The notes beneath the pieces were generated by a model, which was not told the origin of the DNA, made no database searches, and worked only from the letters and a program-made list of their open reading frames with translations. The position numbers were made by a program, and so were the translations under genes. A stretch of DNA of 64,000 nt, from the NCBI GenBank assembly GCA_903813345.2, contig CAIIXF020000002.1:2272001-2336000 (forward strand), read 5' to 3'. Each line of letters begins with the position of its first letter. The first letter of the stretch is position 1. Shown here in pieces: positions 14,195-63,532 of the stretch. The stretch is from Owenia fusiformis (Eukaryota; Annelida; Polychaeta; Sabellida; Oweniidae).

Positions 14195-17100
14195 TCAAGG
14201 TTTTTGATCTTGGGCCCTTACAGAGCGGAACTTCAAGATTACAATAACACCGACTGCTACACAAATTGCACATAATGCCCCGACTGTACCAAGTACAATG
14301 AACATAACCTGTGGACTACCATGAGCCGAACCTAAAACAAAAATTAAACTTTTCGTTATTATGTTTTATTTAATGGCCGATGTTGTATTGTTTTCGGTAG
14401 TTTCCTTAGTCAGGGCTTATTTGAAATGGACATTGGAATTTCGAAAGCTTAAGATAATCGCTTTCAAGCATGATCAAGAACAAAATATTGCATAATATAG
14501 TAGAGGAATGATGGAGAGTATCGCCCCACATTTTCTTTAAATTGAACTTATCTGCATACCATTTCCTCCATTCTGACCATTCGCTCCTGCTGAACCACTT
14601 GCTGAGATATCTGCCACAAACTTCAAGACCGTCTCACCGGAATACGTCGCTTCTCGTTTGTGGAGAGATCTACGCCTTCTAGATGTATCGGTCGGGCAGT
14701 TTTTCTGTAATACCAATCGAAATACATCGTATCGTTATGAGAAAACCCCCTTCATATCAAATTATAGTTCTGGAAAATCATATTTAAATCATCTTTATAT
14801 ACACATATCACAAAACAGTTCAAAACACATGACAATAGGGCTTTTAATTTATTCTGTAGTAATTACAATTACGTATACGTTGCAGAACAAATTAGTTTTT
14901 CTACTGCCCCAACGGCCATCGAGTTAGTATAAATTATTTGCTCCCCTCAATATTCTGGCGACCGGAAGTCCACTATTTTGATCACCTCTCAGAGCCTGTT
15001 TATGTTTGCTGTGTTTTAAATTTATAAATAATAACGTTATAAATGTCCGAACTATTGTGAATAAATTAAGGGACAAATGAATAGTCTACTCCTGGTTGTC
15101 AGACTATTGGAGGGTAGCCTGCTTACTCACCCCATTACAACTAGCTCGGCACACTCACTCCATTACAACTAGCTCGGCATACTCACTCCATTACAACTAG
15201 CTCGGCATACTCACTCCATTACAATTAGCATGCTCACCCCATTGCAACTAGCTCGGCATACTCACTCCATTACAACTAGCTCGGCATACTCACTCCATTA
15301 CAACTAGCATACTCACCCCATTACAACTAGCTCGGCATACTCACTCCATTACAACTAGCTCGGCACACTCACTCCATTACAACTAGCTCGGCACACTCAC
15401 TCCATTACAACTAGCTCGGCACACTCACTCCATTACAACTAGCTCGGCACACTCACTCCATTACAACTAGCATACTCACCCCATTGCAACTAGCATACTC
15501 ACCCCATTGCAACTAGCATACTCACCCCATTGCAACTAGCATACTCACCCCATTGCAACTAGCACACTCACTCCATTACAACTAGCTCGGCACACTCACT
15601 CCATTACAACTAGCATACTCACCCCATTGCAACTAGCATACTCACCCCATTGCAACTAGCACACTCACTCCATTACAACTAGCTCGGCATACTCACTCCA
15701 TTACAACTAGCATGCTCACCCCATTACAACTAGCATACTCACCCCATTACAACTAGCTCAGCATACTCACTCCATTACAACTAGCATACTCACCCCATTA
15801 CAACTAGCTCGGCATATTCACTCCATTACAACTAGCTCGGCACACTCACTCCATTACAACTAGCTCGGCACACTCACTCCATTACAACTAGCTCGGCACA
15901 CTCACTCCATTACAACTAGCATACTCACCCCATTGCAACTAGCATACTCACCCCATTGCAACTAGCATACTCACCCCATTGCAACTAGCACACTCACTCC
16001 ATTACAACTAGCTCGGCACACTCACTCCATTACAACTAGCATACTCACCCCATTACAACTAGCATACTCACCCCATTGCAACTAGCACACTCACCCCATT
16101 ACAACTAGCTTGGCACACTCACTCCATTACAACTAGCTCGGCATACTCAGCCCATTACAACTAGCATACTCACCCCATTACAACTAGCATACTCACCCCA
16201 TTGCAACTAGCACACTCACTCCATTACAACTAGCATACTCACCCCATTACAACTAGCTCGGCATACTCACTCCATTACAACTAGCTCGGCACACTCACTC
16301 CATTACAACTAGCATACTCACCCCATTGCAACTAGCACACTCACTCCATTACAACTAGCATACTCACCCCATTACAACTAGCTCGGCAGACTTCGACATA
16401 GCACTCAAACTGAACCTTTGCCGTATCTCCACCGCCAATTCCAAACATGGTGAACTTTGGTCCGTACGCTTGGAGGCTCGTTGTTTCAAACCCTAATGTT
16501 AACTGTCCAAAGGAATCAGGCCACGTGACAATGCCTTCAACTGTACACCTATATGCATGAGAGGGGATCAAAGTTGTAATAAAACATTTCAGAGGATATA
16601 GATTATAGTTATGCTACGTGACTCGTTGAATGCCACGCCAAACGTTCTTTGTGCTAGAGGTGTCAAGTATTAACCGGTTAACCGGTTAACCGCCGATAAT
16701 GTCTTGACCGGTCTGTGTTTTTATGGGTGGTTAGTTGACCGTGTATAATTCTGTTATTTCCCGCGCTTATATTGCATGCTAATCTGTTTGCTTTTAAAGT
16801 GTCAGTTTCACGTAAGCTACTCATACATGTCATAAGTCCCATAACTCCTTACAAATATCCAATCAGAAACTTTAATCCCTGCCACATTGCTTTCCCGCGC
16901 TTACTTTGCATGTTAATCTGTTTGTTTTTCAAGCGTCAGTTTCATGTGAGCTACTCACATGTGATACATGTAGGTTCAATAACTCCTTACAAACATCCAA
17001 TCAGCAACTTTAATCCCTGCCACATTGCTTTACCGCAATTACTTTGCATGTTAATCTGTTTGTTTTTCAAGTGTCAGCCATGTGTAATCAACTCATAGGC

Positions 17101-20100
17101 CAGATTATTCCTTACAAACTCATTTCATAAATAAATTATATGCATTTTTTAATTCGTCAGTTTTTATATTATTGTTGTCTATCAACGTCGCCAAAATGTC
17201 AAAGGTCAAAGCCTCGCAATTGGTAGTGAGAAAATTAAAATTAGAATAAACACTAATCAGCTGCAATTGTCGTTGTTATGGTGCGTTCGTGGAGATTCCA
17301 AGGGTAAACCAGTGTGGTAAGTAATTTAGAGGTACCAGTAGTCAGGTAGTGTATGAATAGAATAGAGTAAAGCTTGAGGAACGTAAAAAATAAACGCTAA
17401 TATATCATTTTTCCAATTTTTTCAACTTTCAAGATCGAAGATGAAGATTTCATTTTAAATTATCAGTTCAAATTTCCCGCCGGTTAACCGACTTTAACCG
17501 GTAAAAACACCCGGTTAACCGGTTAATGCTCAAGCAGTTAATTGACACCACTACTTTGTGCTAAGTACAAGGTTATTAGAGATTGTGATCGTCGTTGTAT
17601 TACAAATTTAAACTTTTGAAGATCTAGTCGTACTGGCTTTGTACTGTTTGATATGTAAATGGTTGAACGAGTATATATCTATGTAGCCATGGGTTCAGGG
17701 GTTTGTAATAAGAAATCACATAATACACACCAGTCGGAGAGCATTGGTATCACGTTGGTGCCTTTATCGTTAGTGGCTTGGCAGGATTTCACCATCAGTC
17801 CATTCTCGTCACCAGCTATAACAAAAATGAATGTTATACACCCCATTTAGTGTTCATAAGCAACCCATTTGGCTTAATAGTAATGATTATGTTATTTGTT
17901 TTTTATTTGTCTGTTCCTTATGAATGGTTTATCGGAAGACTGTTAGATGTTAATAAGGTACAGGGTGCCTTGAAATTTTAGAATTATGAAGTTCATTCAA
18001 TGTACATTTTGTTCTGAAAGTTTGATGATAATCTATTCATTGTGTCAAAAACTACAGTCCTTTACAAAACATGCTCAAAGTGGGCACTTCTCCTCTCTAT
18101 GCACAAACGAATCCTGCGAACAAAGTTGTTAATGACCCTGACCTTTACACATTAATGTGGATGGTAAATATTGTGGTGGTTATTGTTCGGGGCCTGTCAG
18201 TATACACATTGGCTTTGAGATATCCTCAAAGATAAAAATTTGGGGGATTTAGATCAGGCGAATGAGGTGCCCATATGGTTTGCGTTCTGCAACTGATGAG
18301 CTGACCACCAAAGTATTGCCTAAACCATTTCAGCATATCATTTGCAGTGCTGGGGTGGTATTGGCTTGTTGAAACCACTGCTTATCTCCTTAGATGTCCC
18401 TTCTAGTCCTTAGTGACCTCCAAAACTTGGTGAGAACTTACTGGTCCTTGTTTATGGTGAAAGCACGTCCCCAGTCACCTTCGAACCAAAAGAAACTGAT
18501 GATTCCATGTTTCCTCATTGCCACCCAGGCAGTGCATTGTTCAGAATGCAATGGATTCTGTAACACTTCATCAGAAGGATGTAAGCCCCAGTAGCAATTG
18601 TTCTTGGAACAAACTTGTCCATTCAGAAAGACATGTGTGTAGGAGGATCATCAACAACTTTTTTCGCCGGATTGAATTGTGCATAGAGATGAGAGGTGCA
18701 CATTTGAGGCATGTTTTGTAAGGAGCTGTCGATTTTGACTCAATTGGTACATTATTATCAAACTTTCACAACAAAATTCACATTGAATGAACTAAATAAT
18801 TCTGAGATTTCAAGGCAAAATACCACCCTGTACTTGCAAAAATAAACTAAACAATACAATTAGACAAACAGAGTAGCTAAAATGCATTTCTAGGGTAAGG
18901 TATAGTAGAATGATAAGGCTAGCAACCTGTCATCTCAATTGTTTAATATGTTACTGTATGTTTGAATCTTAGATCTGTTCCTCGAATACACTCTAAATCA
19001 TTTTAACAGCCAGAAGTTACTTCCATTTTGTGTTGATATGAAATGCTGTTTATGTTTGACGATTTAAGAAATTAAAACTGCTCATTTTGGCAGCATACGG
19101 AACCCTGTCAATGTTTGAAACTTAATTTTCCTAAATAACAAATCTTGGTGACAAATTTGATCAATCGTTCGCCAAACCCAAACAGGCTTCGATAAATTAT
19201 CCATAAGAAGACGTCCAGTTGTCACTATGCCTAATGAATATCCCACTCACCCACGGACAATGGTAATCCACCATCATCGTTTCCGAACATCCTCACTCTG
19301 AACTTGACCTCGGTACCAATTGGAATCGCACCTCTGAGTACATCAAGACTTGCTGCATCTACTAGAGTGAGTTCATAGCTTCTGTCCAGTACGTTTGGTG
19401 TCCCCTCGCCAGGTACTACCGTTGGCGAACTGCAATGATTTCGTTAACGGTGTAAGTGATGTTTTTGTTAACATTAACATTTACGCACTCAGCCACGTAT
19501 GCAATATGCGTTACTACTAACGACGAATAAACATTCAATACAGTTATGAATTACTGTATGTGTTACCATGTATGTTTTAATGGCATTTTGAAAAAGTGGT
19601 AAATTGTCGTCTTATGTTGTCTTGGTGCGTGGTGTTAGTGTCCGGTTAAGAATTGTTGCTTTTGCAAAATGTTTTCCCTTTTTTGCGATTGACACTAAAA
19701 GAAAGGAAAATTTCTGAATCACTGTCTATTTAAGACTCTTAAACCAATGTAAATCATAAGGAAATGACCATGGTATAATATTTATGTATATACCTCCGAT
19801 CAAATTGTGGCAGAATAATGACGTTAAATAAAATGCAAAACTGGTACATATAATGTTAATACGTTTTGAACTGAAATGAATAAATATAACAAAAAAAGGT
19901 AAACATATACATAGCACTTACTTAATAATATCATATATATCATATAAACATATGCATAGTACTTACTTTATAATATCTGCAGTCCCTACTGCCCCTAAGT
20001 TTGGTATGGACGATGGTGTATATTTGCATGAAACAGTGAACATTGCATCTTCAGTGTCGAGAATCGCACCCTCTCTAATGACGAAGTCGACCTCCACTGT

Positions 20101-21299: not shown

Positions 21300-21827
21300 G
21301 TCTACAAAATCAAAAATATATACAAAATAGAGCTACAGTAGATTAAAAATACCATGTTATAATTGTGTGTTAGAAAACAGTGTGTCTATGTGTTATACGT
21401 GTGGTTGTTTTCAACGAATGTCATTTGATGAGAATTCTTTTTAAGGGAAGTAAATTGCAAAGTATGGTTTTCATCCCTTCTAAACGGATTCTTTTCGAAT
21501 CAATAGGCAAAACAGTACCTCCTGTATAGTTCTAAAATGAGGATGTAGTTTAGAAATCTAGTTCATCGACAGAAGTTTCATGAAATATAGACACATTTGA
21601 AAATATACACTTTCCTTTTCTAAACAAAAGTTAAGAATGGTACACCTATGAATTAAGTGTACACAAATTTTAGATCCGATATATTTTTCATAATTGTCAC
21701 AAAAAGCAACTTTTGGAAGATCAGTGCCTTAATCAAGTTAATAAAAATCTTAAGGGATTTTTCGCATCTAATTAAAAATGTAACATGTCGATAATCTTAT
21801 AAGAGAAAATATTGAACTTTTACGTAC

Positions 21828-21864
21828 CTTTTCGGAGCTTTGAGGGCCGTCCGTCGCTGTTCAT
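21828..21864 (-). CDS. Candidate upstream first exon of ZP-A
   Basis: The - strand has ATG followed by 12 codons plus one base, then a GTACGT donor. Joined to the acceptor at 21302-21303 it continues in frame into MMTTWF. The encoded start MNSDGRPSKLRK is basic and would form an extended n-region before the signal peptide. The alternative is a 5' UTR exon with translation from 21299. The in-frame fit is suggestive but not proof. Confidence 0.4.
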
Positions 21865-21869
21865 TAAAC

Positions 21870-23830: not shown

Positions 23831-23832
23831 TT

Positions 23833-30600: not shown

Positions 30601-32544
30601 ACAGATAACAAATCATATATTGGCGTTTTAACGGTTCAATCTTTTCAACTGGCAAGTTAAATTCCTCGGGTCTTGTTTGGAGTCCGACAAGGGTAAAAAA
30701 CTAACATAGGAACGAGTAGATTAGACAAGTGGCATAAAAAGCATTTACTCGATAATAATCTGATGGTCTGAGTCTAAACTTTTCCTGCTAAAATTGAGGG
30801 AAATTCAAATAGTTGAACAAAGACTGATGACCATAACTTTTTTCAATTGTCAACTTTTTCGAAAAAATGTCTCAAACAATTTTTTTAGATCATGACAATT
30901 TGTGTCACAAACCGCGAAATTCAAACCCAAACGTACCAATCTCTCCTGCCCACATGCACCTTCATCTCCCACTGCTAGCGGCGCTTGCTTTATCTCTAAG
31001 GTGTAGTTCCATGGGCTCGCAGAGACATCTATCGTCTCTATGCAATCAACACCAAGATCAACCTATAAAGCAGTAGTTAAAGAACATAAGGAAAAATTAA
31101 CCAGACGTATAAAAACCATGAAAATTCGAAATAAAAGTAGAAAAATATATGTTTTCATCATGCAAAATATCAAATCAAAGGATCTATGTTGAATTGATTT
31201 TTCATGAAAGAAATCTCAATTTAGTCATTGCCGCTGTCCCGTCCCTGCCCTGGCGTCATTCAGCATGGAAAATATGTAAATGAACCATATCACATAGTTC
31301 AAGACAATCTGTCTCGAGTAAATTGTGTCATGTAAAATCACCCATTATGATAAGGAATTTTGGTAACGTAAATACCGTGTGGTTTCTTCGGTATACCTTA
31401 GTTGTGTTTAAATTGAGCATTTCAATTTTAAAATTACCTATTGTAGAGGGTAATTTTACATTTGTACATACGTTAAACGTTGACGTTGTTAACTTACTAC
31501 ATGTTCGTATCCTTGTGGATATACGGTGGCGTTAGAGCCCGTTGTGGAATCCCAGCTCTCGGGGGTGTACATTACGTTGATGATAATTGGACCAAATCCC
31601 AATACACTGTCTTCTGTGCCGCATGATACAGTTACTGTAATTGCCAAATGAAATATTTTATTCCATAATTTAATCGAAATAATTCACCAGGGAAATGATA
31701 ATTGAATGTAAAGATCGTACCATTTTAATAAAATAGATTTTCTGTTCAGAAGTGAATATGGCTTTTATTCATTGTAATAATATTCAAAATAGTGAGATGG
31801 TTATCTTAGTATTGACGTATCGAAATAAAATATGTAAAGTATCAGTTGCGGTCCAGTCTTTGCTATAAATACATATTATTTCCTCTAAAATTACAATCCG
31901 TCCCCTTCTAAAGCCTAACGCAAACTATCTCAGAAGCTATCAATTAAAAAAATGTCAGGCACATGGAACTTTGAAAGGAAAGCTATGAGCATTTCTAAGC
32001 TAAAGATACACAAAATAACATAAAAGGTCGTCTTGAACGCACATCGGAGTACCCACATCTTGTCCCCCTCCCCCTGTAAGAAGCTGTACCCCACTCCCCC
32101 TACAAGAAGTTGTACCCCCCCCCCTCCCACTACAAGAAGTTGTACCCCCCTTCCCCTATAAGAAGCTGTGCCCCCTCCCCCTACAAGAAGTTGTACCCCC
32201 CCCCCCCACTACAAGAAGTTGTACCCCCCTTCCCCTATAAGAAGCTGTACCCCCCTCCCACTACAAGAAGTTGTACCCCCCCCCCCACTACAAGAAGTTG
32301 TACCCCCCTTCCCCTACAAGAAGTTGTACCCCCCCTCCCCCTATAAGAAGTTGTACCCCCCCCCCTCCCCATATAAGAAGTTGTACCCCCCTCCCACTAC
32401 AAGAAGTTGTACCCCCCTCCCACTACAAGAAGTTGTACCCCCCTCCCCCTATAAGAAGTTGTACTCACGGTCGCTTGCTTCGATATCAACCACAGCCTTG
32501 GAGACTCCAACGAGGCAGGCGAGGAAAAGAACTACCAGCTTCAT
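27674..32544 (-). CDS. ZP-domain type I membrane protein (ZP-B)
   Basis: Nine coding exons are inferred (- strand): 32469-32544, 31498-31634, 30937-31062, 30456-30598, 29830-30017, 29398-29482, 28490-28670, 28079-28214 and 27674-27885. They give 427 aa with every phase consistent. The signal peptide is MKLVVLFLACLVGVSKA. The ZP module (about 27-312) has LTVSCG, ACGQERL, IQCVYK, SCTACND and TCEIEVC. A proprotein-convertase-like region RKKRALAKR (320-328) follows, then a Gly/Thr/Asn-rich linker and a transmembrane helix (376-398). The cytoplasmic tail has a His cluster (QHHHNSHY). Exons of 126, 143, 85 and 181 nt match ZP-A exactly, which proves tandem duplication. An acceptor one base before the ATG implies an unlocated 5' UTR exon. 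By family the product is probably cleaved and assembles into an extracellular coat; the tissue is unknown. Confidence 0.9.
28925..29060. repeat. Dispersed repeat in ZP-B intron 6
   Basis: A stretch with 'gggattatggtcccctttct' and 'gataataagggaaag' recurs in the same orientation at 37050-37175. It is a mobile or dispersed repeat of unknown class and is not coding. Confidence 0.6.
30095..30240. repeat. Dispersed repeat in ZP-B intron 4
   Basis: A segment with 'ttctttcaaa', 'attttgagcatttctcaagt' and 'gatttggggcc' resembles 55975-56110 and, more weakly, 48060-48240. All three lie beside 'gtagcca'-like and poly-C/G stretches. The family could not be assigned. Confidence 0.45.
32070..32465 (-). 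repeat. G-rich minisatellite at ZP-B exon 1 donor
   Basis: About 15 units of 26-29 bp ('GTACAACTTCTTGTAG' plus a G-run of 8 or more) lie on the sense strand at the very start of ZP-B intron 1. The authentic donor GTGAGTACAACTTCTTATAG merges into the first unit at intron base 5, so the repeat seems to have grown from the donor-proximal intron. The sense RNA has repeated G runs able to form quadruplexes. Proline-rich open frames on the + strand across it are artefacts. Confidence 0.9.
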
Positions 32545-37040: not shown

Positions 37041-37049
37041 ATCTTTGGG

Positions 37050-39060: not shown

Positions 39061-39074
39061 TAATTCTTCATCCT

Positions 39075-39485
39075 AATCCAAATGTACAAAGGCACGTTCA
39101 ACTTTTACACAACCTTATGTTCCATTGCTTTATCATGTTTAACATCATAATCTAAATGTACAAAGGTATGTTTAACCTCTAAACAACCTTATGTTCCATT
39201 GCTTTGTCATGTTCAACATCATAATCCAAATGTACAAAGGCACGTTCAACCTCTTACACAACCTTATGTTCCATTGCTTTATCATGTTCAACATCATAAT
39301 CAAAATGTACAAAGGCATGCTCAACCTCTTACACAATTTTATACATGTAATATGCTCCTGTTTTACCATGTTCACCATTATAATCTAAATGTACAAAGGT
39401 ATGTTTAACCTCTAAACAACCTTATGTTCCATTGCTTTGTCATGTTCAACATCATAATCCAAATGTACAAAGGCACGCTCAACCT
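39075..39485 (-). repeat. Tandem repeat of the CDF coding end
   Basis: Six units, five of about 74 bp apart and one spaced 84 bp, are marked by 'aatgtacaaagg' at 39081, 39155, 39229, 39304, 39388 and 39462. The last unit is the real 3' end of the CDF reading frame (ERAFVHLDYDVEHDKAMEHK then stop). The others are decayed copies in the 3' UTR. The array therefore starts in coding sequence and spans the stop codon. Confidence 0.85.
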
Positions 39486-42400
39486 CTTCCAACATCTCAA
39501 TCTTACGCTGAAGTGGTTCCCCAATGTCATGCGCCTCTTCCAGTGTCATCTTAGGAGGTAACACTATGTCAACCTCAACAAGAAAATTATTCCCAAAATG
39601 ATACGCCATGACACTTTCGATCATTTCAATGCTTTTGTGGTGATTCACACAAATCCAGGTGATTTTTTTCAGCAGGTCGGGACGCGCCGTGTGGCCTGTG
39701 AGAAGTTTGATCTGGTCCCATCCCGTTAGACTCCAACTAACAATAATGTAAATGCTTATGAGAACTGCTCCTATAGGATCAGCATAGCTCCAGTAGCGTG
39801 TCCCTGAAATAATAATAGTAGAAATCATGCTGCATTAAATCGACAAGGAATTCTTATGAAATATGAACAAAGTCACAACCTGAGGCATTATCCACAATTT
39901 GTAGCATATTATTCTTATTGTGCCAAAGTGCAATCTTGATGTAGCAATAAAATAGCTATAAAATTGAAGCATTACTACACTAGTTGCAATATTTAGTGTA
40001 ACATTATGCCTTTAAGAGTAATGCATTTTGTTTACCAAATCTAACGCCCAGAATAATACTCAATTACTCAGATGCGAGTAGGTAGTTACCAGTTTCGCCA
40101 CCAGGTGGCTGGTTCGGGGAATTAACATGGCAGGGTATTACAAAATTCCCTTAAACTTGAATATGCAACGGTTTGAGTGGTTCAATTTTCATATTACCCT
40201 TATGTATCTGATAGTTATACAAATTAAAATATGTCCAGTAAAAGAAAATATTATCTGCCCAACACAAGAAAAGATATTTCACTTTTGTGGTTTTACAACA
40301 TGGGGTCTATGGGGAATCTCCCCGACCTAGAAGTCACATTTTCAAAGAAAATTAAATTTTCAAAGTTGATAAACTCTTTTCAAAACAACATTTTTAAATG
40401 TAATTTTACATGTAGATTCCAAATATGACATCAGTTTGACTGAATTGTGAATTTTTAATGACGTAAATCAGGATTATTTCTACTCGCATCTGGGATATTG
40501 GTGGCGCTTCAAGATCTTTCATTTCTGTTCAATGGGAAAAATTGATATATTGATTTACCCATCAAATATAAGTACAAAGCATGTTTTTTTAATACTTTAT
40601 TTCAAGGATATCGAGGTCGGAAGTTGTGTCAATTAATGGAAGGATATTTTCTCATGGGTTTTCAATTATCTAGTTGAAAGCCCATGATCTCATGTAAAAT
40701 TTAGACGGATGAATGGCAATGGAATAACTCTCGCCAAACCACTGTAATCACGAGACATTGTAAAACAAAATCATTATGGTGATTGGAGCGGTGAAATGTA
40801 GCTTTCAAGCCCACATATATCTTGTGATATTACCCATTCATTGGATAAGTTTGATAATCATGAGATAGATGTGAAAAACAACAAACAAGTGAATTATACG
40901 TGAACTGCCATGTTTAGAGTCCAGTACCTCATTATATATAAATCCCCTACTATTGTCTGGTTATATTATTATAGGGCACAGTTTGGAAATGCAGTCTGCC
41001 GTAGCTAACTTTCCCCAAGCATTGCATTTGTCTTTATATTTACAACCTTACCAATAAACCCCATCGCAAGAGCTACTAAGTTGGAGAGAACATCATTTCT
41101 GTGGTCCTGGGCCAATGTTTGAATGCTGGGGTTCGCTATTCTACGACACACCTTATTTGGAAAGATGAAAAAAGAAAACGCTTAGTTATCTTTCAAATGT
41201 GTAAATTTTCAAAAGTATTTTATCTCCAATTGAAAAGAATTTCACATTTTCCTATTCAAATTACACATCAGAATGGTAAATATTTAAATATCATAGTGAT
41301 TGCTAAGTAAACAGTTTACTCACCAGAAACAAAACAAGCTTGGTTACTATGGTGAAGCTTAGTATCACAATGGTTGCTATGTCAACAGATGGACCGCTGG
41401 ACTGGTCACCAGCATACTCAATAATCTTTTGGATTGACTCTCTGATCTGCAATAAATTTTTAAACACATAAAAAGCTAAAAAACATCAAAAATGATTGAG
41501 ATTTACAAATTTTTGATTTATTTCTTAATCTTCAAAAATAGTCTAAATAAAACTCAAATCTGAGTTATGCTTTAGACAGATAGAGGGGAGGACTAAATGA
41601 GGACTCCACTTTATCTTTGCCCAACTTAGTTCATTGAGATAACAGATGTCTAAATCCTCAGACTTTTGATGGATTGAATTTAAGCAGCTTTGAATAAACC
41701 AGGCGCTGGCCATGGTGTCAAATCAGCACCTATATGATATTGAATTATTGTTTGGAGGTGTGCAGTGCACTAAAGTAGCTATTTCATAAGACATGTGTTT
41801 TTAAAAGAAACACATCTTTTATTGTTTTACATATTTTTATATTACTGGACTTATTTTCTTATTACCATTTGCACAGAAGCAAGCGCCATGACAACGGATA
41901 TGACAATAATAGCCACAGGTTCCAGTTTTGTCCTTCCCTGGGGGTACAGGTACGGATTCCTCTGTTTCATAGCTCTGCTTGTCCACCATATGATCACCCC
42001 AGAAGCCATGTCAACAGCACTGTCAATCACACTGGAGATCACAGAAAGAGAACCTGCAATAAAGATGCCATATCAACAGCACTGTCAATCACACTAGAGA
42101 TCACGGAAAGAGAACCTGCAATATAGTTGCCATATCAACAGCACTGTCAATCACACTGTCAATTTGAGAAAGAGAACCTGCAATATAGTTGCCATATCAA
42201 CAGCACTGTCAATCACACTGTCAATCAGAGAAAGAGAACCTGCAATATAGATGCCATATCAACAGCACTGTCAATCACACTGTCAATCAGAGAAAGAGAA
42301 CCTGCAATAAAAATGCCATATCAACAGCACTGTCAATCACACTGTCAATCACAGAAAGAGAACCTGCAATATAGTTGCCATATCAACAGCACTGTCAATC

Positions 42401-45400
42401 ACACTGTCAATCAGAGAAAGGGAACCTGCAATATAGATGCCATATCAACAGCACTGTCAATCAGAGAAAGAGAACCTGCAATATAGATGCCATATAGATG
42501 CCATGTCAACAGCACTGTCGATCACACTGGAGATCACAGAAAGAGAACCTGCAATAAAGATGCCATATCAACAGCACTGTCAATCACACTAGAGATCACA
42601 GAAAGAGAACCAGCAATATAGATGCCATATCAACAGCACTGTCAATCACACTGAAGATCACAGAAAGAGAACCTGCAATATAGATGCCATGTTTCATAGC
42701 TCTGCTTGTCCACCATATAATCACCCCAGAAGCCATATCAACAGCACTGTCAATCACACTAGAGATCACAGAAAGAGAACCTGCAATATAGATGCCATGT
42801 CAACAGCACTGTCAATCACACAGGATATCACAGAAAGAGAACCTGCAATATAGATGCCATGTCAACAGCACTGTCCATCACACTGGAGATCAAAGAAAGA
42901 GAACCTACAATATAGATGCCATATCAACTGCACTGTCAATCACACTAGAGATCACAGAAAGAGAACCTGCAATTTAGATGCCATATGAACAGCACTGTGG
43001 AACACATTGGAGATGACAGAAAGAGAACCTGCAATTCAAATGCCATGTCAACAGCACTGTCAATCACACTAGAGATCACAGAAAGAGAACCTGCAACAAA
43101 GATGCCATGTCAACAGCACTGTCGATCACACTAGAGATCACAGAAAGAGAACCTGCAATATAGAGACCATATAAACAGCACTGTCAATCACACTAGAGAT
43201 CACAGAAAGAGAACCTGCAATATAGAGACCATATAAACAGCACTGTCAATCACACTAGAGATCACAGAAAGAGAACCTGCAATATAGATGCCATATCAAC
43301 AGCACTGTCAATCACACTAGAGATCACAGAAAGAGAACCTGCAATATAGATGCCATATCAACACCACTGTCAATCACACTAGAGATCACAGAAAGAGAAC
43401 CTGCAATATAGAGACCATATAAACAGCACTGTCAATCACACTAGAGATCACAGAAAGAGAACCTGCAATTTAGATGCCATATGAACAGCACTGTCAATCA
43501 CACTAGATATCACAGAAAGAGAACCTGCAACAAAGATGCCATGTCAACAGCACTGTCAATCACACTAGAGATCACAGAAAGAGAACCTGCAATTTAGATG
43601 CCATGTCAACAGCACTGTCAATCACACTAGAGATCACAGAAAGAGAATCTGCAACAAAGATGCCATGTCAACACCACTGTCAATCACACTAGAGATCACA
43701 GAAAGAGAACCTGCAATTTAGATGCCATGTCAACAGCACTGTCAATCACACTAGAGATCACAGAAAGAGAACCTGCAATAAAGATACAATGTCAACAGCA
43801 CTGTCAATCACACTAGAGATCACAGAAAGAGAACCTGCAATATAGATGCCATATCAACAGCACTGTCAATCACACTAGAGATCACAGAAAGAGAACCTGC
43901 AATATAGATGCCATATCAACAGCACTGTCAATCACACTAGAGATCACAGAAAGAGAACCTGCAATATAGAGACCATATAAACAGCACTGTCAATCACACT
44001 AGAGATCACAGAAAGAGAACCTGCAATATAGATGCCATATCAACAGCACTGTCAATCACACTAGAGATCACAGAAAGAGAACCTGCAATATAGATGCCAT
44101 GTCAACAGCACTGTCAATCACACTAGAGATCACAGAAAGAGAACCTGCAATATAGATGCCATATCAACAGCAATGTCAATCACACTAGAGATCACAGAAA
44201 GAGAACCTGCAACAAAGATGCCATGTCAACAGCACTATCAATCACACTGTAGATCACAGAAAGAGAACCTGCAATTTAGATGCCATGTCAACAGCACTAT
44301 CAATTACACTGGAGATCACAGAAAGAGAACCTGCAATATAGATGCCATGTCAACACCACTGTCAATCACACTAGAGATCACAGGAAGAGAACCTGCAATT
44401 TAGATGCCATATCAACAGTATTGTCAATCACACTGTAGATCACAGAAAGAGAACCTGCAATTTAGATGCCATGTCAACAGCACTGTCAATCACACTGGAG
44501 ATCACAGAAAGAGAACCGGGAACAAAGATGCCAAATCAACAACACTGTCAATCACACTAGAGATCACAGAAAGAGAACCTGCAATTTAGATGCCATGTCA
44601 ACAGCCCTGTCAATCACACTGGAGATCACAGAAAGAGAACCTGGAACAAAGATGCCAAATCAACAACACTGTCAATCACACTGGAGATCACAGAAAGAGA
44701 ACCTGCAACAAAGATGCCATATCAACAGTATTGTCAATCACACTGTAGATCACAGAAAGAGAACCTGGAACAAAGATGCCATATCAACACCACTGTCAAT
44801 CACACTAGAGATCACAGAAAGAGAACCTGCAATTTAGATGCCATATCAACAGCACTGTCAATCACACTAGAGATCACAGAAAGAGAACCTGCAATTTAGA
44901 TGCCATGTCAACAGCACTGTCGATCACACTAGAGATCACAGAAAGAGAACCTGCAATATAGAGACCATATAAACAGCACTGTCAATCACACTAGAGATCA
45001 CAGAAAGAGAACCTGCAATATAGATGCCATGTCAACACCACTGTCAATCACACTAGAGATCACAGAAAGAGAACCTGCAATTTAGATGCCATGTCAACAC
45101 CACTGTCAATCACACTAGAGATCACAGAAAGAGAACCTGCAATATAGAGACCATATAAACAGCACTGTCAATCACACTAGAGATCACAGAAAGAGAACCT
45201 GCAATTTAGATGCCATGTCAACAGCACTGTCAATCACACAGGATATCACAGAAAGAGAACCTGCAATACCCAATTGAAAGAAATAGTTGTCGAACGAATA
45301 GTTATGAACTTCTGACACAACATTGTAATTACAGTATGAAGATAATCAATTGTGTTTATTTTAAATGATGCAAAATCAATGATCTTATCAGAATGCACTA

Positions 45401-47366
45401 AACTGAGTTCAAATTTGATTGTGAATTATAGTTTGATATGTATGGACTTGGATTTGTTGATGTCATATATAATGCTAAAAATTGGTTACAAAAGTATTTA
45501 CCAGAAATTACTGCGGCAACCACTTTCCCAATGAGAAGTAGCAGGTTTAGGAATAATGACGTTTTAGCCAAGATGTTTGCCATGCGTAAAACTTTCTTTT
45601 TTCGTTCATCACTCTCCTCTTCGTTGAAACTGTCCTGATGGGCCAGCTCAAAGTCTGCCAAGAAAAATACAGAATATAAGTTATTATTGTAAGATACTTA
45701 TGTAATAAGTAGGCAATTGTCTCTGGCCTAAAATAACAGTTGAATTAATAGCATGTACATTTAATCAAATCCAATACTTCAGCACATCACCCTTTCAAAT
45801 ATGTTAATACATGTAACACTATTTTGCCAATGTACAAAAAATCAAGACAATAAATCCTTGCAAGGATTGGGTTATTTCTGTTGAAATTATCAAAGGAAGA
45901 GCTGAGCCAACTATTTTTCTCCAGTTCTGCAATATTGTATTTAAGTGGTAATTTTGCCTAATCATTTAATTTGCCTATTGCTTAATTTTTGCTGGTTCGG
46001 AAAATTACATGTCAGAAATATTTTCTTCATATTGTTATCCAATGGGAAGTTTCTTGTCATTAGGAAAGTTAGAATTAGGAAAATGATAAGATTTGATCAT
46101 TCAGAAAATTAACCACTTGGAATAAATAACACTTATATAGTAATCAATGACAAACTTGACAAACTAAGAACATTCATACTTATTGTAAAAATTGGTGAAC
46201 TTATTAAAATTGCTAAAAAAACTATTAACTTATTGTAAAATCAGTGAACTTATTGTAAAATTGCTAAAAATACTATCAACTAAATGCTATAACTTATTGT
46301 AGAATCGCGATAAACTTATTGTAAAATGATTTCTCTACACACTTGTAATGAGTTCATCCTGCGCTTTATAATAAGCTCTGACACTTTGTGGGAGTTTCTT
46401 GTCTGCTTTCTGCTTCCCGCGTCTCTTAGATGTGAAGACATCCAGGGACATTCGCCATTGGTCGTTTTTAGCTTCTTCTTTATCATCTGGCAAGTCATCA
46501 AGAAAGCTGAAAGACAAATGCTTCAATATTCATCATTTCTTAACCATAGAGGTGCCAGTGAGCTAATGAATCATAAAAGCACATTGATTTTCACAGTATT
46601 TTTATCAATAATGTGCAAAATCATAATTCAACCCATTTTGCTTAAAAATACACCACTAATGTAATATTTCACACTTGATACAGTGTAAACAAATTCTAGA
46701 CAGCATGTTATTTTTAAAGATTTAACAGGATGCAAAAATACAGCACCATTGAAAAATTAGAGCCCCATCCAATCTGATGAATGCTGGTTATGAGCCTAAG
46801 TACATATATGTTATACAGTAAAAATTGTAAAGTGGAACATCTCTGTTACAAAAACACCCCGTAAATCCCATAACTCATTGGCTTGAAATGAACTTTGAAG
46901 TGAGTTAAACACCTTCCAAATGAAACAGCTTGTACAGGTACAATAGGTGTTTCGCTTAATACACAAGTTTTTCTTTATTTTCTATCGGCCATTCTTACCT
47001 TGCTGTGGAGGGCGTTATCTCCAACATAGGGATTCTTCGAGGGCAGTTCATACTGGGACAAATCGCTGCGTTATCACTTGATGAATGTATCATATTCCCA
47101 TTCATAACAAAGCTTCCGGTTGTTTGAAGTTTATTCTTATCTGTTGTATCAGCGGTTAATTTAAATTCCCCGCTACTGTGACATTTACGAAAAGGAGGCA
47201 GTACATGCTGTGGGCTCTCCTGATTGGTTAAAAGTTTTTTGGTCGCATCTGGGCTACCAACGGGTGGAGACACTCCTCTGGCGATACTTTCATCTTCTGA
47301 AGACCCCCCAAGGCTTGTAACATCGAGAAGTATGGGAGATTGCGATCCTCTTGCCTTTTCGGCCAT
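39412..47366 (-). CDS. Mn-type cation diffusion facilitator transporter
   Basis: Seven coding exons are inferred (- strand): 46999-47366, 46343-46506, 45502-45654, 41866-42053, 41324-41446, 41052-41151 and 39412-39803. They give 495 aa with all phases consistent. The ATG at 47366 opens a long Ser-rich cytosolic N-terminus (about 190 aa). The transmembrane core starts near residue 200 (ANILAKTSLFLNLLLLIGK). The metal site reads DSAVD (239-243) in TM2 and DHRND (348-352) in TM5. This double DxxxD is the signature of the manganese branch of the CDF family, known best from plant MTP proteins; zinc members have HxxxD. A C-terminal cytosolic domain (VEVDIVLPPKMTLEEAHDIGE) fits the dimerising CDF tail. 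It probably exports Mn2+ from the cytosol or into organelles; substrate is inferred. Intron 3 is almost wholly a splice-acceptor minisatellite. Confidence 0.92.
40079..40492. mobile_element. Short MITE in CDF intron 6
   Basis: The end CAGATGCGAGTAG at 40079 is inverted at 40480-40492 (CTACTCGCATCTG). A second inverted pair lies just inside or beside it (gccaccaggtggc near 40098; ggtggcgc just outside at 40501). No target duplication was resolved and it is not coding. Confidence 0.55.
42003..45268 (-). repeat. Minisatellite of CDF exon 4 start plus 3' splice site
   Basis: About 52 units of 62 bp fill about 93% of CDF intron 3 and continue into exon 4. On the sense strand each unit reads TATTGCAG|GTTCTCTTTCTG and continues through the first 50 or so exon bases (SLSVISSVIDSAVDMA). 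It thus carries the acceptor and the TM2 metal motif codons. At about 42690-42740 one unit includes an extra piece of exon 4 (coding for GVIIWWTSRAMK), which shows the copies came from the exon. A unit is 62 bp, so reading on from any upstream acceptor shifts frame and meets a TGA in the next unit. Confidence 0.95.
46140..46330. repeat. Repeat near CDF exon 2 donor
   Basis: The motif 'aacttattgtaaaat' and relatives recur about six times, ending about 12 bp inside the intron from the exon 2 donor at 46343. It is short and imperfect and does not include the splice site itself. Confidence 0.6.
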
Positions 47367-49082: not shown

Positions 49083-49092
49083 CCTCTCTAAT

Positions 49093-54464: not shown

Positions 54465-54469
54465 AGTTA

Positions 54470-57080: not shown

Positions 57081-57084
57081 GTGT

Positions 57085-57480
57085 TTGATTCCCATGCGGG
57101 GCATTGAATTTAGCCGACACTTTCTGTAAATTTTTTTATCTGGCCAGGCTTGTTACACTATACCGTCGTTATTGTCCATTAGTTAGTCATTCCTTTGGGG
57201 CGCCCTTGGATCATTACATTGGTGTCAGATGTGGAATCAAAGCATTGGTTGTATCCTTTGTCCCCCTTGTTATATGGTAGTCACTGCTAGGGAAGCAGGG
57301 CTGACCACGAGGGCGTGGTCCTTTCAAAGGGGAGAAAGTGTAACGACATTTTAAGCATCAGACGGCCCAACGGTCCTAGGTTGATTCCCATGAGGGGCAT
57401 TGAATTTAGCACACTTTCTATCAATTTCTTTATCTGGCTTGTTACACTATCCTCGTTATTAGTTAGTCATTCCATTACAA
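57085..57480 (+). mobile_element. Deleted LTR retrotransposon remnant
   Basis: Two related LTR segments lie at 57085-57225 and 57339-57480, sharing 'ttgattcccatg' and 'ggggcattgaatttagc' blocks. The first ends TTACA and is followed by TTGGTGTCAGATGTGG, which resembles a primer-binding site. The second starts TGTAACGAC directly after a purine tract (aaaggggagaaag) and ends TTACA. The internal region is only about 115 bp, with no gag or pol. The 5' LTR is truncated. It is a TRIM-like or deleted element. Confidence 0.7.
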
Positions 57481-57481
57481 T

Positions 57482-58740
57482 ACTACACACTGATTTAGGA
57501 CGGGTGGGAACAAATAAATATTCAACTATTTATTCATATGAAATGTGCGTTGTCAACTCGAATGTACGTTGTCCCCTGTAATTGAAATTCATGAGATATA
57601 TATGTGGTATTAAACAATGTGATTCATTAAGGTTTTTATGAGTAACAAGTGATCTTCAACGAACATGTTCAAGTATCCTTCTTCAGCGTTTTCATTTTAT
57701 GAAAGTACTGTTGTGGTGGTGGTTAATTTGTGCCCATTTGGAGTTTGCTTCCAGTCTCTTTATTTGGCGTCTGTACCTTACGTTCTGTTAGTTACATTGA
57801 TAGATAGATCTATACTAGCTTATTGAATATGACTTATTAAAATCCCGTTTATGATATATCTGGAAAATTTCAATAGTTCAATCCAATTGAAGTAATTGTT
57901 CTGTTTCAGTTTTAAATGCATCTGACCCCTGTCTGTTAGTGTTATGAAAAATACGTTGCCAGCATTATGGTTAACTGTGAATTGAGTAAGTTTAATGGGA
58001 CAACGTACATTCAAGTTGACAACGTACACGTATGATCTTTTAATAGCCGAAACGTTAATACTTATCAAATCTTCAAAAGACCCTAATTGTGTTCTTTAAA
58101 GAAAAAAATTCTCATAAAAAATATTCGACACACTCTTAGACGACAGGGGAGGAAATGATCAAAGGAAATGTGTAAAAACACAACGTTTTCCAACAGACCA
58201 ATTTTTGGTTGACTATCAAACAAATCGAGCACTCTGTTCGAAAATCTTTTAACGTTATTAAAAAGTTAAATCAGATGTCTTCCTAAACGAATACACAAAA
58301 AATCAAACATGAAATCCTTAATGTATTCCTCATTATTACCCTGCGCGCAGAGTCTAGTCATAAGACGAAGCTCTCTTTTAAGAAGTGAAGTCGAACGAAT
58401 GCAAAGGGTATCAGATTATTTTTATAAAACCTACATCATCAAACCTACATCATTGTCTTTGGTTCAAATCGGTTGAATAGTGACATCGTACATGTAAAGT
58501 ATACTACGGTATATTTTGTCACTGTACCTTAAATGTAACTGTAACGTAAATGGTTAGGCGTGCAGTGTCCATTGGTGTTTGTTGTAACCCGCCTAAGACA
58601 GAACCAATTTAAGGAACTTATTGAAATCAAATGGACATGCAACGTGACCCCGGGACGTCATCTTACTGGGAGGTAATCAGGTAACTGGTGGTACTGAAAC
58701 TGAGTGGGCCGGACTAGGCCTACAGTGTCCTAAATCAGGT
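57482..58740. other. Gene-free stretch
   Basis: No exon, RNA gene or clear element was recognised. Only short AT-rich open frames are present. Confidence 0.4.
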
Positions 58741-58748
58741 TGCTCTAC

Positions 58749-59069
58749 AGCCTGACAACGGTAAAGTCAGATACCGTTGTCACAAATGGCGGACATAACT
58801 GTCGCTTCAACGGCATATGGTAATTACAGTGTCAGTTGTCCCGTATCTCATTTTGATCGGTTACATTAAAGACTTTATTTCGATGATAGAACATTATAAA
58901 TTGTACAATGAGTATTAAAACACTTTGATTGGTTGTTGTTCCAAAGGAATTTAGTCTAGGTGCTCTATTAAACATACAGTTATCATTACAGTTTCATGAA
59001 AATCTAATTGAAGCGACGGTTATGTCCGCCATTTGTGACAACGGTATCTGACTTTACCGTTGTCAGGCT
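58749..59069. mobile_element. MITE with ~60-bp inverted ends
   Basis: AGCCTGACAACGGTAAAGTC at the left end is perfectly inverted at the right end. The arms continue over 'agataccgttgtcac' and 'aaatggcggacataac' to about 58812 and back from about 59007. The interior is about 195 bp and AT-rich. No target duplication was found. Confidence 0.85.
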
Positions 59070-61085
59070 ATTCCGGTGTGAAAGTGTGTTGACATAAAAA
59101 ATGCGAAGGTATATTGTGTTTATAAGATTAGACATGGTTCTAGGATGATAGGCTTTGGGATATAATGTCATCTATTTGAGAATTTATCCATAGCACAATA
59201 CGCATGTCATGTGTACATGTAATAATGAAAATGAGTCGTTCAAATATGCTACAACCGACTAAATGGAGTATGTTTCGGGGGACATCTCAAAAATTGATAC
59301 TAAATCCCACAATGGTCAATTCCATTACCATTTTTCTTGAAACAGACTTGTTCCCAAATATAAATACAGGTTTACATACCTTTGAGTAATAAATCAGACT
59401 TTACTAACCACCAAGTGAACAAATATGAGCAATTTGGTATGAATTTTTGGGGATCATTTGAGACGATGCTTCAAGCTTAACAATCACATTTGCTTTTTAA
59501 TACACGGCGGCTTTTGGTATTAATTTCTGTTTGTCAATTAGTATATGATTTTGATCGTGAGCTTGCGTGAGCACGCGTCAAATAAGTTGATTAAATGGAA
59601 TTAATCGGGAAAATAACTTTGAAAGCTTTAACTTTAATCAAGAATGAACGATAGTCCATGATCCTCGGGAAAAATAGTTTCCACTCAAGATGGCGCTCGC
59701 TTGTATTTGTATTGATACTGCACCCTTCAAACTATTAACAAAACGGGTCCGTTTCGTTAACAAAAAGTGTCGGGAACTCGAAGTTACGATTTTTATTTTT
59801 TCTTATTTCATGAGTTTAGGGCAGACTTTCTATGACATTTTTATCACATACGTGTGTCTGTATCATATCGGAGACATATAAAACAGTTTTATCTCTGATC
59901 AACGTTTGTGAATATATAGTTCAGAAAACGACAGAATCACCGATGATATACCTCACTTTTGTATGACTATTTTACCTGACAATTTGCGACTCAAAATTAT
60001 TGTTTTCAAAACCGATTGCTTTTTACCATATTTTGGCGTCCTTGCATTGTGTCATTAATACAATTTTGAACTGTATGACATCGGTACATTCACTGATTAC
60101 AAATGGTTGTATGATAATAACAATAAAACCACTCCGACTTATTCAGAATTATGATTAAATATAATATGATATCTAATTAAATGAATTGACGGGATAATAT
60201 TACCCGCAACCGAAAATAGTCTAAAACATTGTATATAAAGTGCATGTATTCTCTGCAGATGAACAAATTAGTTCGAACAAGTGATTCTCGACACAGAAAT
60301 GAAAACTTTTACAAATATTCCGTTACCTTCGAACAATGCAAAAGAGAAAAACGTGATATCACAAAAGTGATTTAAGAAATGATGCGTAGAAGTATTATTA
60401 GCCAACGAATTAAGATTTCGGCTCGTTTAAGTTCTTTTATATACTAAGATTGTTATGTATACAACCCTTTTTCTATAAGAGAAGTAATCGTCGTTGACGT
60501 CGACTGTTAATTATGGTAAGTATTTTTTTCAATAATTCAAGTTTAAAAAATGAATTTAGGTTGAAAAAGCCTACTAAACGATGAATTATAGCATACATTA
60601 CATATCATAAAACACGGAAGGCAAGTGGAAACGTTTTAAATGAGTGCATTCGGTGTACAGGCTCCAAGTGTAACCGATTTTTGTTTTTTACTACAGCCTT
60701 GGTAAATGCATTCTTGCTTTATTCGTAATGTCGAATATTTTCCATTTCTTCCATTCTCGGACTACGGATAACATCCAAATGTTCATTGCGTTTGGTAATA
60801 ATTTAAATCTCGAATTCTTAATCTAGGACTTTTTTCACCTAGGGTTGTAAAGATTTGATCCAAATACTAGACTTTATGCAATAATCTATCTTCCATTTTA
60901 AAATTGCCGTTACCATGGTTACTAAAACCGGCTCAATCATTTATAACGATTCCACTTCCACCCGGTGCAAAATACAGAGTTAATAGTGTTACCGTCGTAA
61001 GATAGTAAAACATTTTTTGTCATCAGTCTATCTGAATTTATTTGTAAAGTTCATTGATTGGCATTGCAAAAAAAACATTGTTTTT
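59070..61085. other. Gene-free region before the lectin gene
   Basis: AT-rich sequence with no recognised exon. It must contain the upstream region of the C-type lectin gene, but no promoter element could be defined. Confidence 0.4.
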
Positions 61086-61088
61086 CCG

Positions 61089-61400
61089 AGAGAAGAGGGT
61101 CGATGAAATTTCAGTAGGTATGAATTCATATATATCCTAGAATTAACATTCTATAAAATCATTTTACGAATTCACAATTTTGTTTAAAAGTTGAATTATA
61201 CAGACTGGTTGAATTATTTTTGATTTTGAAGGGTTCAGACGACGACCACACCAATAGAAGAGGGTCGATGAAAATTCAGTATGAATTCACATATCCTAGA
61301 ATGAACATTCTATAAAATCATTTGACGAATTCACAATTTTGTTGTGAAACTGGTTGAATTATTTTTGATTTTGAAGGGTTCAGATGACAACCACACCACG
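61089..61400 (+). repeat. ~165-bp tandem duplication at the lectin 5' end
   Basis: 61089-61250 is repeated at 61257-61400. Both contain 'agaagagggtcgatgaaa', 'cattctataaaatcattt' and 'gattttgaagggttcagac' (the second copy reads cagat). The second copy leads straight into the signal-peptide exon of the lectin gene, so the promoter or 5' UTR has been duplicated. Confidence 0.8.
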
Positions 61401-61418
61401 AGTCCTGTTTTACTGGTG

Positions 61419-63532
61419 ATGTTTTACATCTTCGTTTTGGCAAATCCAATTACGGCGAAAGGTAAGACTGGGAATTATTACTTGAAAGTCAAAAGCTTTA
61501 TAGAACAATTTTACAATGTCGTTTGCTTTGAAAATTCCATGTCATTCCAGTATTCTTATATCTTCTAATTAGCCACAATTCATACCAATCCATAGCATTC
61601 ATCCTCCCATGTTTTTTGCCGAAAAAATTAAGAAAATCGGTTGATAAACAAGTGAGAAATGAACTAATAAGTGCATGAAAATGGTTCTGAGAAAAATGCA
61701 TTTCAAAATTTTAGTTCTCATAGAAACCAATGGTACAATGATATCTAAAACATAATTTATTCTTCCTTTAAACCTGGTTAGACAATCAACATTGGTTTTT
61801 TATGAAAGTCTAGCATATTTAGAAAAGATTGACATCGAAAAAAAAATTCAATTTTTTTCAAAAAGTTTTTGTTACCTTAGTGACATCACTAATGTTTCAA
61901 AATATTTTTGATAAGCTAAAACATTGAAGTGGCCCATTAAATATGACATTTTATTATTGAAATAGTGTGTCTTTTGTTCAATCTTTGCATTGGTGCTAAA
62001 AATATAATCTTTTTTGAAATGCATTAAGAAATATTTGATGATTAAGAAATTTCAACTTTTGAAATCAACGAAATTTGAATATTTGAGAAATGAAATGCTC
62101 ACAACTTTTTTTCAAAACATTTTTTTTTGTTCAAAGTCCTGACAAATAGTAAATGAATGATAAAAAAATATTTTCAAACTTTAGACGGGGACTTTAAGAA
62201 TCAGACAGTTCTAATTTTATTTCAAGACAGCGTTTTTAAATGAACACGATTACGAGTGATATGCAATGTGATTCTCAATAAAATTTCTTTCGTAAATTGC
62301 TAGTGCAAGAATGCAATTAATTGTCACCGGTTGTATACATTTTTACATTAGATTGAAGCACCAATGGCTAGTGCGAGTGTACAGTGAATTATCATTAGTT
62401 ATATACATTTTTATATCAGATTTAAGCACAAATGGCTAGTGAGAGTGTACGAAGAATTATCATTAGTTATATACATTTTTATATCAGATTTAAGCACAAA
62501 TGGCTAGTGAGAGTGTACAGTGAATTATCATTAGTTATATACATTTTTATATCAGATTTAAGCACAAATGGCTAGTGAGAGTGTACAGTGAATTATCATT
62601 AGTTATATACATTTTTATATCAGATTTAAGCACAAATGGCTAGTGAGAGTGTACAGTGAATTATCATTAGTTATATACATTTTTATATCAGATTTAAGCA
62701 CAAATGGCTAGTGAGAGTGTACGAAGAATTGTCATTAGTTATATACATTTTTATATCAGATTGAAACACAAATGACTAGTGCGAGTGTACAAAGAATTGT
62801 CATTAGTTATATACATTTTTATATCAGATTGAAACACAAATGACTAGTGCGATTATACAAGGAATTGTCATTGGTTGTAACATTTTTATTCCAGATTCAT
62901 GCCCAAATGGATAAAATAAGAGTACAGTAAATTGTCATTGGTTGTAAACATTTTTATTTCAGATTAATGCACAAATGGATAAAATAAGAGTACAGTAAAT
63001 TGTCATTGGTTGTAAACATTTTTATTTCAGATTCATGCACAAATGGATAATATAAGAGTACAGAAAATTGTCATTGGTGAATACATTTTTATTTCAGATT
63101 CATGCAGAATGGTTAATGAGAGTGGTCGGGCAAAGTTTTCGATTTTTTTTATTCTTTTCAGAATAATGTCTAATGACCGGTGCGAGTATCCAAGCAAATG
63201 GTTACGGGTACTTCTCGCACTAGCCGTTTGTGCTTCATTCTGATGTAACTTGTTGTTAACGTTTTAGTCTTTTATTTCAGAAGCATGTCCAAATGGCTGG
63301 TACGAATGTAATGGAAGGTGCTATGGGTTGTTTACCAACCAAACCCACAATATGACGTGGGTTGAAGCTAGAGAAATCTGTTGGTCTAAAGATGCCTTCT
63401 TGGCCGCAATAACCAACGATGGTGAATATGGGAGGGAAGAAGAGGCATGCATGAAAGAAACACTGCGCAACTGGAATAATACAGAACCACTCTTGGGTAT
63501 TGAACATGAAGCGCAGCAATCTATATACGCAG
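61419..63532 (+). CDS. Secreted C-type lectin-domain protein, 3' partial
   Basis: Two exons are inferred: about 61419-61461 and 63281-63532, phases consistent. The gene continues past the window. Exon 1 encodes a hydrophobic signal peptide (MFYIFVLANPITA from ATG 61419). In-frame sequence upstream (SPVLLV) is also hydrophobic but lacks an ATG in view, so the true start may be on an earlier exon. Exon 2 opens a CTLD: ACPNGWYECNGRCYGLF, then MTWVEAREICW, FLAAITNDGEY and LLGIEHE where typical lectins have WIGL. The carbohydrate-binding loop lies beyond the window, so sugar binding cannot be judged. Such proteins often act in innate recognition or extracellular matrices. Intron 1 contains the acceptor-derived minisatellite. 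Confidence 0.8.
61575..61920 (+). repeat. Repeat shared by lectin introns 1 and 2
   Basis: This segment of intron 1 ('gcattcatcct', 'gagaaatgaact', 'gcatgaaaatggttc', 'ttttcaaaaagttttt') recurs in the same order at 63550-63870 in intron 2. Each starts soon after a splice donor. The copies are clearly diverged and non-coding. Confidence 0.8.
62310..63175 (+). repeat. Minisatellite of lectin exon 2 start plus 3' splice site
   Basis: About 13 units of about 69 bp end roughly 100 bp before the CTLD exon. Each has 'acatttttatatcag' followed by ATTxATGCACAAATGG or ATTTAAGCACAAATGG-like sequence. The real junction is TTTATTTCAG|AAGCATGTCCAAATGG at 63280/63281, so units copy the acceptor and the first exon bases. 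The copies nearest the gene (62890-63175) are most like the real junction. Copies would meet a TAG or TAA within about seven codons. Confidence 0.88.

Follow-up and report, generated by a model that had tools for sequence, protein, structure and literature searches.

Minisatellite-like tandem duplications of intron-exon boundaries, known as “mirages”, have been described in amphioxus, where either edge may be involved and the units measure 10-160 bp (PMC3087553, PMC3902484; these and the other papers named here are cited from excerpts). Many of the repeats carry AG/GT signals, and regular splicing is reportedly undisturbed (PMC3087553, PMC3902484). The amphioxus examples include Adh3, with units of 10-72 bp, and the globins BflGb6 and BflGb9, with length instability and with regular splicing suggested by reverse transcription polymerase chain reaction (PMC3087553), as well as PGBD5 and troponin C (PMC3902484). 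A second described system is intron gain by tandem genomic duplication, represented by the AGGT model, potato RdRp and 188 events tabulated in a review (PMC3443670, PMC4974935). In human segmentally duplicated genes, internal tandem repeats at exon-intron boundaries alter gene structure; these boundary minisatellites occur in recent paralogs, together with alternative splicing and novel introns (PMC2812944). The intronic minisatellites of C. elegans, as presented in the excerpt of PMC4039745, were judged not relevant as a parallel. The present analysis concerns tandem arrays at the exon ends of unrelated genes in the polychaete Owenia fusiformis, found in a stretch of 64 kb (G000:C2:2272001-2336000, hereafter the window; guanine-cytosine content ~34%) that belongs to an assembly of 498 Mb in 525 contigs.

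The arrays of the window were called with Tandem Repeats Finder (TRF) and then read base by base, the TRF rows having been merged by the author at a score of at least 100. At this score the window holds 13 merged arrays, four of which straddle an exon end and one of which touches a donor. A preliminary description of the same DNA had named five arrays, all of them listed by TRF, and had proposed that four are built from exon boundaries; among possible causes it named selection that tolerates copies only on the intron side. The origin of these four from exon ends was confirmed. The four exon-end-derived arrays lie at the ZP-A donor, the CDF acceptor, the CDF stop codon and the lectin acceptor, and in the arrays examined the copies sit on the non-coding side of the exon ends. 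Most likely these are exon-edge minisatellites of the “mirage” type, grown neutrally from duplications that spanned an exon end and enlarging introns or 3' untranslated regions (3'UTRs). On this account, the simplest one, a local duplication in tandem, some 25-110 bp long, would by chance take in a splice junction or a stop codon; splicing or termination would go on using the copy beside the exon body, leaving the protein unchanged, and the surplus copies would become intron or 3'UTR. The array would then expand and homogenise like any minisatellite. Tolerance of such duplications would follow from the continued use of the exon-proximal splice site or the first stop codon.

The spliced model of the CDF gene joins seven coding exons into a 495-aa open frame, recognised in Pfam as Cation_efflux (E=2e-32) and ZT_dimer (E=7.9e-07). 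The 62-bp unit of its acceptor array consists of the intron end TTGCAG and the first 53 nt of exon 4, with a TRF copy number of 53.0, and the array occupies ~93% of the 3,448-bp intron 3 (45501-42054). Tandem duplication of splice-site-bearing segments had been put forward as a route to both intron growth and intron gain; the first part is supported, as this intron illustrates, and the second is not, since no new introns arising from arrays were found and the splice-site arrays examined all lie at existing exon ends, where they lengthen the intron. In a frame test, exons 1-3 were joined to the 51 acceptors one after another. The frame remains open through exon 4 with the exon-proximal acceptor only (1/51), and with any of the 50 upstream acceptors a stop is met before exon 4 has been read through, located 74-182 nt past exon 3 for the nearest eleven. 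The use of the exon-proximal acceptor would be consistent with the FieF alignments (8 sequences, E=1.5e-11 to 2.5e-9), which run continuously through the spliced protein at ~residues 206-482.

Among the 46 distal CDF copies listed, identity to the exon shows no outward trend: 39 are 0.91-0.96 identical and seven are lower, six of these near the exon (42475-42177). In one copy (42599-42799) the stretch taken from exon 4 is longer and reaches through TSRAMK, evidence of a second duplication that broke elsewhere in the exon. The array at the other end of the gene has a unit made of the last ~70 nt of the coding sequence, stop codon included. The coding end matches an array copy at 76 of 77 nt, with a score of 149 against a shuffle maximum of 26.

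The ZP-A donor array is made up of 50 units, either 23 or 28 bp long and each formed from approximately the last 15-20 nt of the exon followed by GTGAGTR; 14 distinct unit types and 46 GTGAGT sites were counted. The exon matches Pfam VERL_C (E=9.4e-08) and ends in ...GCTAGTTGTAATGGG/GTGAGTA (the slash marks the junction), a junction that is repeated throughout the array. An in-frame stop follows soon after the exon, and just the first two donors precede it. The use of distal copies thus closes the frame in CDF and, for the most part, in ZP-A. Judged from these reading frames, the CDF protein would have to rely on the last acceptor and ZP-A on the first or possibly the second donor, a choice expected under exon definition but not under simple first-AG scanning.

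The ZP-B array had likewise been associated with an exon boundary. Its position beside the donor was confirmed, as the array starts at intron +5 (32464) and the intron start matches it in the alignment test; derivation from the exon was not, because the sequence of exon 1 finds no match in the array (alignment score 11; shuffle mean 13.3). The array is therefore classified as donor-adjacent and not exon-derived. On the RNA strand it presents ~15 G-rich blocks immediately downstream of the 5' splice site, and these could act as a G-quadruplex or as a block of splicing enhancers.

The lectin array is the weakest case among the four. It consists of diverged copies and resembles the real acceptor and exon start over 27 nt, with 4 mismatches and with 16 of the 27 in the exon; the similarity score is 34, whereas the best of 500 mononucleotide shuffles reached 26, and the middle of the exon gives no match to the array in the alignment test. 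The exon matches Lectin_C at E=0.0088, under the curated cut-off. Upstream of it, a stretch at 63146-63215 contains a start codon and a hydrophobic stretch and also resembles the lectin acceptor and exon start (score 27, shuffle maximum 24); this stretch could be an ancient copy that has since become a putative first exon.

Table 1. Arrays and associated exons in the window, and exon-end arrays at the sampled loci (window positions; units given as length x copy number).
Feature	Description	Position	Strand	Evidence
ZP-A donor array		15149..16382	-	TRF, sequence, unit census, donor count
ZP-A exon	VERL_C / ZP-C type; 3' end seeds array; exon-proximal donor GT 16367-16366	16368..16548	-	sequence, Pfam
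ZP-B donor-adjacent array	26 bp x 15	32064..32464	-	TRF, sequence, alignment test
ZP-B first coding exon	signal-peptide-like; donor GT 32468-32467	32469..32544	-	sequence
CDF coding-end array	74 bp x 5.5, toward 3' side	39069..39487	-	TRF, sequence, alignment
CDF last coding exon	stop codon 39414-39412	39412..39803	-	spliced model; Pfam ZT_dimer
CDF exon 4	body-proximal copy	41866..42053	-	spliced model, frame test
CDF acceptor array	62 bp, 51 recognisable copies	42001..45268	-	TRF, sequence, copy census
CDF exon 3	upstream of array-filled intron	45502..45654	-	spliced model
Lectin acceptor array	68 bp x 11.9, diverged copies	62319..63124	+	TRF, sequence, alignment
Lectin exon	partial C-type lectin domain; acceptor AG 63279-63280	63281..63532	+	sequence, Pfam
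L036	donor array, 54 bp x 3.9
L045	donor array, 42 bp x 5.1
L059	donor array, 44 bp x 14.7
L107	stop-codon array, 111 bp x 5.0
L129	both exon ends: donor array, 71 bp x 2.0; acceptor array, 86 bp x 3.8
L138	acceptor array, 51 bp x 4.7

The window is the discovery set, and for this reason any excess over chance was assessed at loci elsewhere in the genome. The sample consisted of 80 Lectin_C exons (from 148 matches) and 60 protein-kinase exons (from 144), mostly partial-domain hits, with 1,481 bp fetched around each of the 140 exons, giving 280 ends. Nine of the 60 kinase hits are listed with in-frame stops, L129 and L138 among them. Arrays straddle an exon end at 7 of the 280 ends, in 6 of the 140 exons (Table 1; the stop-codon array of L107 is counted among the seven). 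A comparison of each exon with its own locus by BLAST, independent of TRF, recovered the edge copies at L036, L059, L107, L129 and L138; L045, the sixth exon, gave no BLAST row, its unit overlapping the Pfam hit by just ~11 nt. The array of L130 ends 7 bp before the Pfam hit and was scored as non-edge, its unit being unlike the exon (no BLAST row). L036 is the MEK gene, with an exon near-identical to that of human MEK1 (E=2.8e-32), so exon-edge arrays are not confined to fast-evolving genes. The expectation that such arrays would recur across the genome in unrelated, conserved genes was in this way upheld. A unit spanning the exon-intron boundary is present in the ZP-A, CDF acceptor and lectin arrays and at L036, L045, L059, L129 and L138; it is absent from the CDF and L107 stop-codon arrays, where there is no intron, and from the ZP-B array.

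In or beside the arrays of L036 and L045 lies a dispersed palindromic element with the ends GTCACATTT...AAATGTGAC, seen also at L092 and others. It was considered as the cause of these two arrays and dropped, its core word occurring away from arrays too.

Arrays of this kind are hard to assemble, and their copy numbers could be off. That they are an artefact altogether, produced by long-read errors or by collapsed or expanded repeats, is highly improbable: the copies differ from one another (by a mean of 5.5% in CDF, and in the unit types of ZP-A), the same anatomy is found at independent loci, and the array of L036 is broken by a foreign palindromic stretch.

In some arrays most of the repeated splice sites are intact, the real one being counted with them, as in the GTGAGT sites of ZP-A, in 47 of the 51 CDF copies (CAG/G) and in every copy at L045 (5/5), at the L129 acceptor (4/4) and at L138 (5/5). 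This preservation speaks for selection, by which splice-site arrays would be kept to regulate splicing through dosage or alternative isoforms. Such a function has little probability, as the sites are mostly lost in L059 (5/15 intact) and L036 (2/6), the use of a distal acceptor closes the CDF frame, and 6 of the 18 unit lengths of splice-site arrays (window and loci, with two lengths for ZP-A) are divisible by three, one third being the neutral expectation.

The association was also approached from the arrays, 12 donor-motif arrays having been fetched from C1 (10 of short period and 2 from the period class 47-77). Seven of them (L141, L142, L143, L148, L150, L151 and L152) begin at the end of a likely coding exon, a count made without a scored reversed-motif control; in each, the array's first donor marks the end of an open frame preceded by an acceptor-like sequence. 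L152 corresponds to Muted/BLOC1S5 (E=5.9e-15) and L143 to Rieske_4 (E=3.4e-08), both over the Pfam cut-offs, and L151 is tetraspanin-like (E=0.058, below cut-off). The exons of L141, L142, L148, L150 and L151 were called by eye from open frame and splice signals, with Pfam hits absent or below cut-off. The acceptor side of L151 is duplicated too (120 bp x 2.0). The edges of L145, L146 and L149, when read, revealed no clear exon. L144 and L147 belong to a single dispersed repeat, and each contains a short internal tandem of CAGGTGAGTGATT units that is unlinked to an exon.

Whether exon ends are hit more often than chance allows was assessed against a null of uniform seeding, in which the expected number is the sum of the non-edge array periods multiplied by the number of ends and divided by the flank length. 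This null is conservative, because the non-edge arrays may include edges of exons that were not recognised. Overlapping TRF rows were merged; L036 thereby becomes a 246-bp row and drops from the lines for at least 3 copies, despite its 3.9-copy row of 54 bp. The full sample contains 29 arrays with a score of at least 100, of which 7 are edge and 22 non-edge, against 1.75 edge arrays expected (P = 0.002). Under the other cut-offs, which were examined after the data were seen and involve small numbers, the counts are 7 vs 1.40 expected at a score of at least 200 (P = 6e-4), 5 vs 0.57 at 3 or more copies (P = 3e-4) and 8 vs 2.83 at a score of at least 50 (P = 0.009), the last being the only line in which L133 counts as edge. 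By family, the kinase exons give 4 vs 0.56 expected (P = 0.003). The claim that chance would rarely place arrays on boundaries is thus favoured by the full sample, and it loses ground in the stricter set and in the short-period motif counts described below.

Several observations weigh against the proposed explanation or against an excess at exon ends. Lectin exons taken alone give 3 edge arrays vs 1.19 expected (P = 0.12). The nine stop-containing hits may favour array loci, because the Pfam hit itself can run through array copies, as it does at L129 and L138; when the nine are left out, the sample gives 4 vs 1.56 (P = 0.07), or 3 vs 0.38 at 3 or more copies (P = 0.007), the latter still above expectation, and the stop-free kinase exons give 1 vs 0.37. 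Motif searches, in which every match counts and a few large arrays make up most of the total, show no excess for GTGAGT triples at period 16-46 (3,115 vs 4,163 for the reversed pattern) and little or none for AGGTRAGT triples at short period (567 vs 513 reversed), alongside 1,274 vs 570 reversed (2.2 fold) for triples at period 47-77. Counted by eye as arrays among the matches listed, there are at least 10 donor-motif arrays in the first 19.35 Mb of C1, and in 89.6 Mb at least 16 arrays of the reversed motif. Under a dinucleotide model the reversed motif should occur twice as often as the donor motif; since true donors add donor motifs, the array counts give no clean enrichment. Searches with neutral words yielded 16 independent arrays of period 47-77, picked by eye among the matches listed. 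Of the 12 whose edges were read (the other four being two coding in-frame repeats, one 57-bp satellite family and one other), one lies clearly on an exon end (L167, neighbouring a WD40-like exon; E=0.0005, below cut-off) and one probably (L169, with an open frame after the last acceptor and no Pfam hit); at the remaining ten, reading by eye revealed no exon end. As to neutrality itself, the CDF copies vary by 2.0% in TTGCAG and by 0.65% in the first six exon bases, compared with the 5.5% of the whole unit, and strict neutrality does not predict this low variation at the splice site and exon start, although shared ancestry of variants could be its source. Finally, the use of particular splice sites at the arrays is a prediction made from genomic DNA.

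A variant of the preferred reading that does without any excess, pure chance combined with tolerance, supposes that arrays are seeded uniformly, that duplications inside exons are purged and those at the edge survive like intronic ones, and that exon ends are no hot spots. It is a serious possibility, rated at slightly under an even chance. The genome is very array-rich, with the 13 arrays of the window and the 29 of the 140 loci, and some hits on exon ends are therefore expected by chance. The motif tests, the sample without stop-containing hits and the proportion of unit lengths divisible by three agree with this account, as do the non-edge arrays, which among the neutral-word set include those in introns of an SLC6 gene (E=1.2e-17) and a homeodomain gene (E=5.2e-14). 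The counts of the full sample speak against it, together with the stricter set at 3 or more copies and the loci duplicated on both sides, L129 and L151.

These same two loci, and the excess in the full sample, would be explained if exon ends were mutational hot spots, duplicated in events linked to transcription or splicing (R-loops, pausing, or AG/GT microhomology). This cause is unlikely. The stop-codon arrays of CDF and L107 lie at ends without a splice site, where a splicing-specific process fails; the numbers are small, and the excess is weaker in the stricter set. As the excess weakens without the stop-containing hits, the weight of the hot-spot readings was lowered and that of chance with tolerance raised. 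A broader proposal is that exon ends, splice junctions and stop codons alike, are true hot spots where duplications are born in this lineage at several times the average rate of the genome, with introns and 3'UTRs growing outward, and that arrays of up to ~50 near-identical, functional-looking sites, of which apparently the exon-proximal one is used, offer a natural experiment on exon definition. This proposal is rather doubtful at present. The excess of arrays at exon ends is suggestive and not settled; it is judged to be 1-4 fold, or none, and under neutral growth of exon-edge minisatellites arrays may arise at exon ends somewhat more often than expected from uniform seeding.

The searches also brought to light tandem repeats of other kinds. 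At C1:60848229-60851387 a 48-bp array runs in an open frame as a 16-aa repeat, IDKYRGMMGANSPLTF-like by eye, and apparently encodes a repeat protein. An in-frame coding repeat of 69 bp (23 aa, Ser/Thr-rich) is located at C3:7840365-7841476. A dispersed 57-bp satellite, whose unit starts with GATACTTCATCCACCAGTCA, occurs on three chromosomes (C1:20003065, C4:26726245, C5:4526913 and C5:18972285).

If a rate of 1.5-2.5% at the sampled exon ends were to hold, by extrapolation thousands of introns would be growing by copies of their own splice sites. One species would then offer two testable questions, namely how introns lengthen, and whether arrays seed introns, and how the spliceosome chooses among up to ~50 near-identical sites.

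A literature search, with subscription papers largely outside its reach, found no description of exon-edge arrays as a genome-wide feature outside amphioxus. In comparison with the intron-gain systems, the Owenia arrays likewise involve tandem duplication that includes splice-site-like sequence; however, in the intron-gain model an exonic duplication gives rise to a new intron, whereas here existing introns or 3'UTRs are extended. The human boundary minisatellites are found in recent paralogs, in contrast to the Owenia arrays, which are known from DNA alone and occur also in conserved genes (MEK, Muted). The closest likeness is to the amphioxus mirages, with which the Owenia arrays share tandem units that span the exon-intron boundary and carry splice signals. 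Because of this common structure, exon-edge arrays are not a new kind of element. The Owenia arrays differ from the mirages in reaching up to ~50 copies, in including arrays that span a stop codon, of which the excerpts of the mirage papers (PMC3087553, PMC3902484) make no mention, and in having a frequency estimate, 7/280 sampled ends. Consequently, what Owenia seems to add to the known systems is the stop-codon class, arrays of ~50 copies in which most decoys are intact, and a frequency measured in a further genome.

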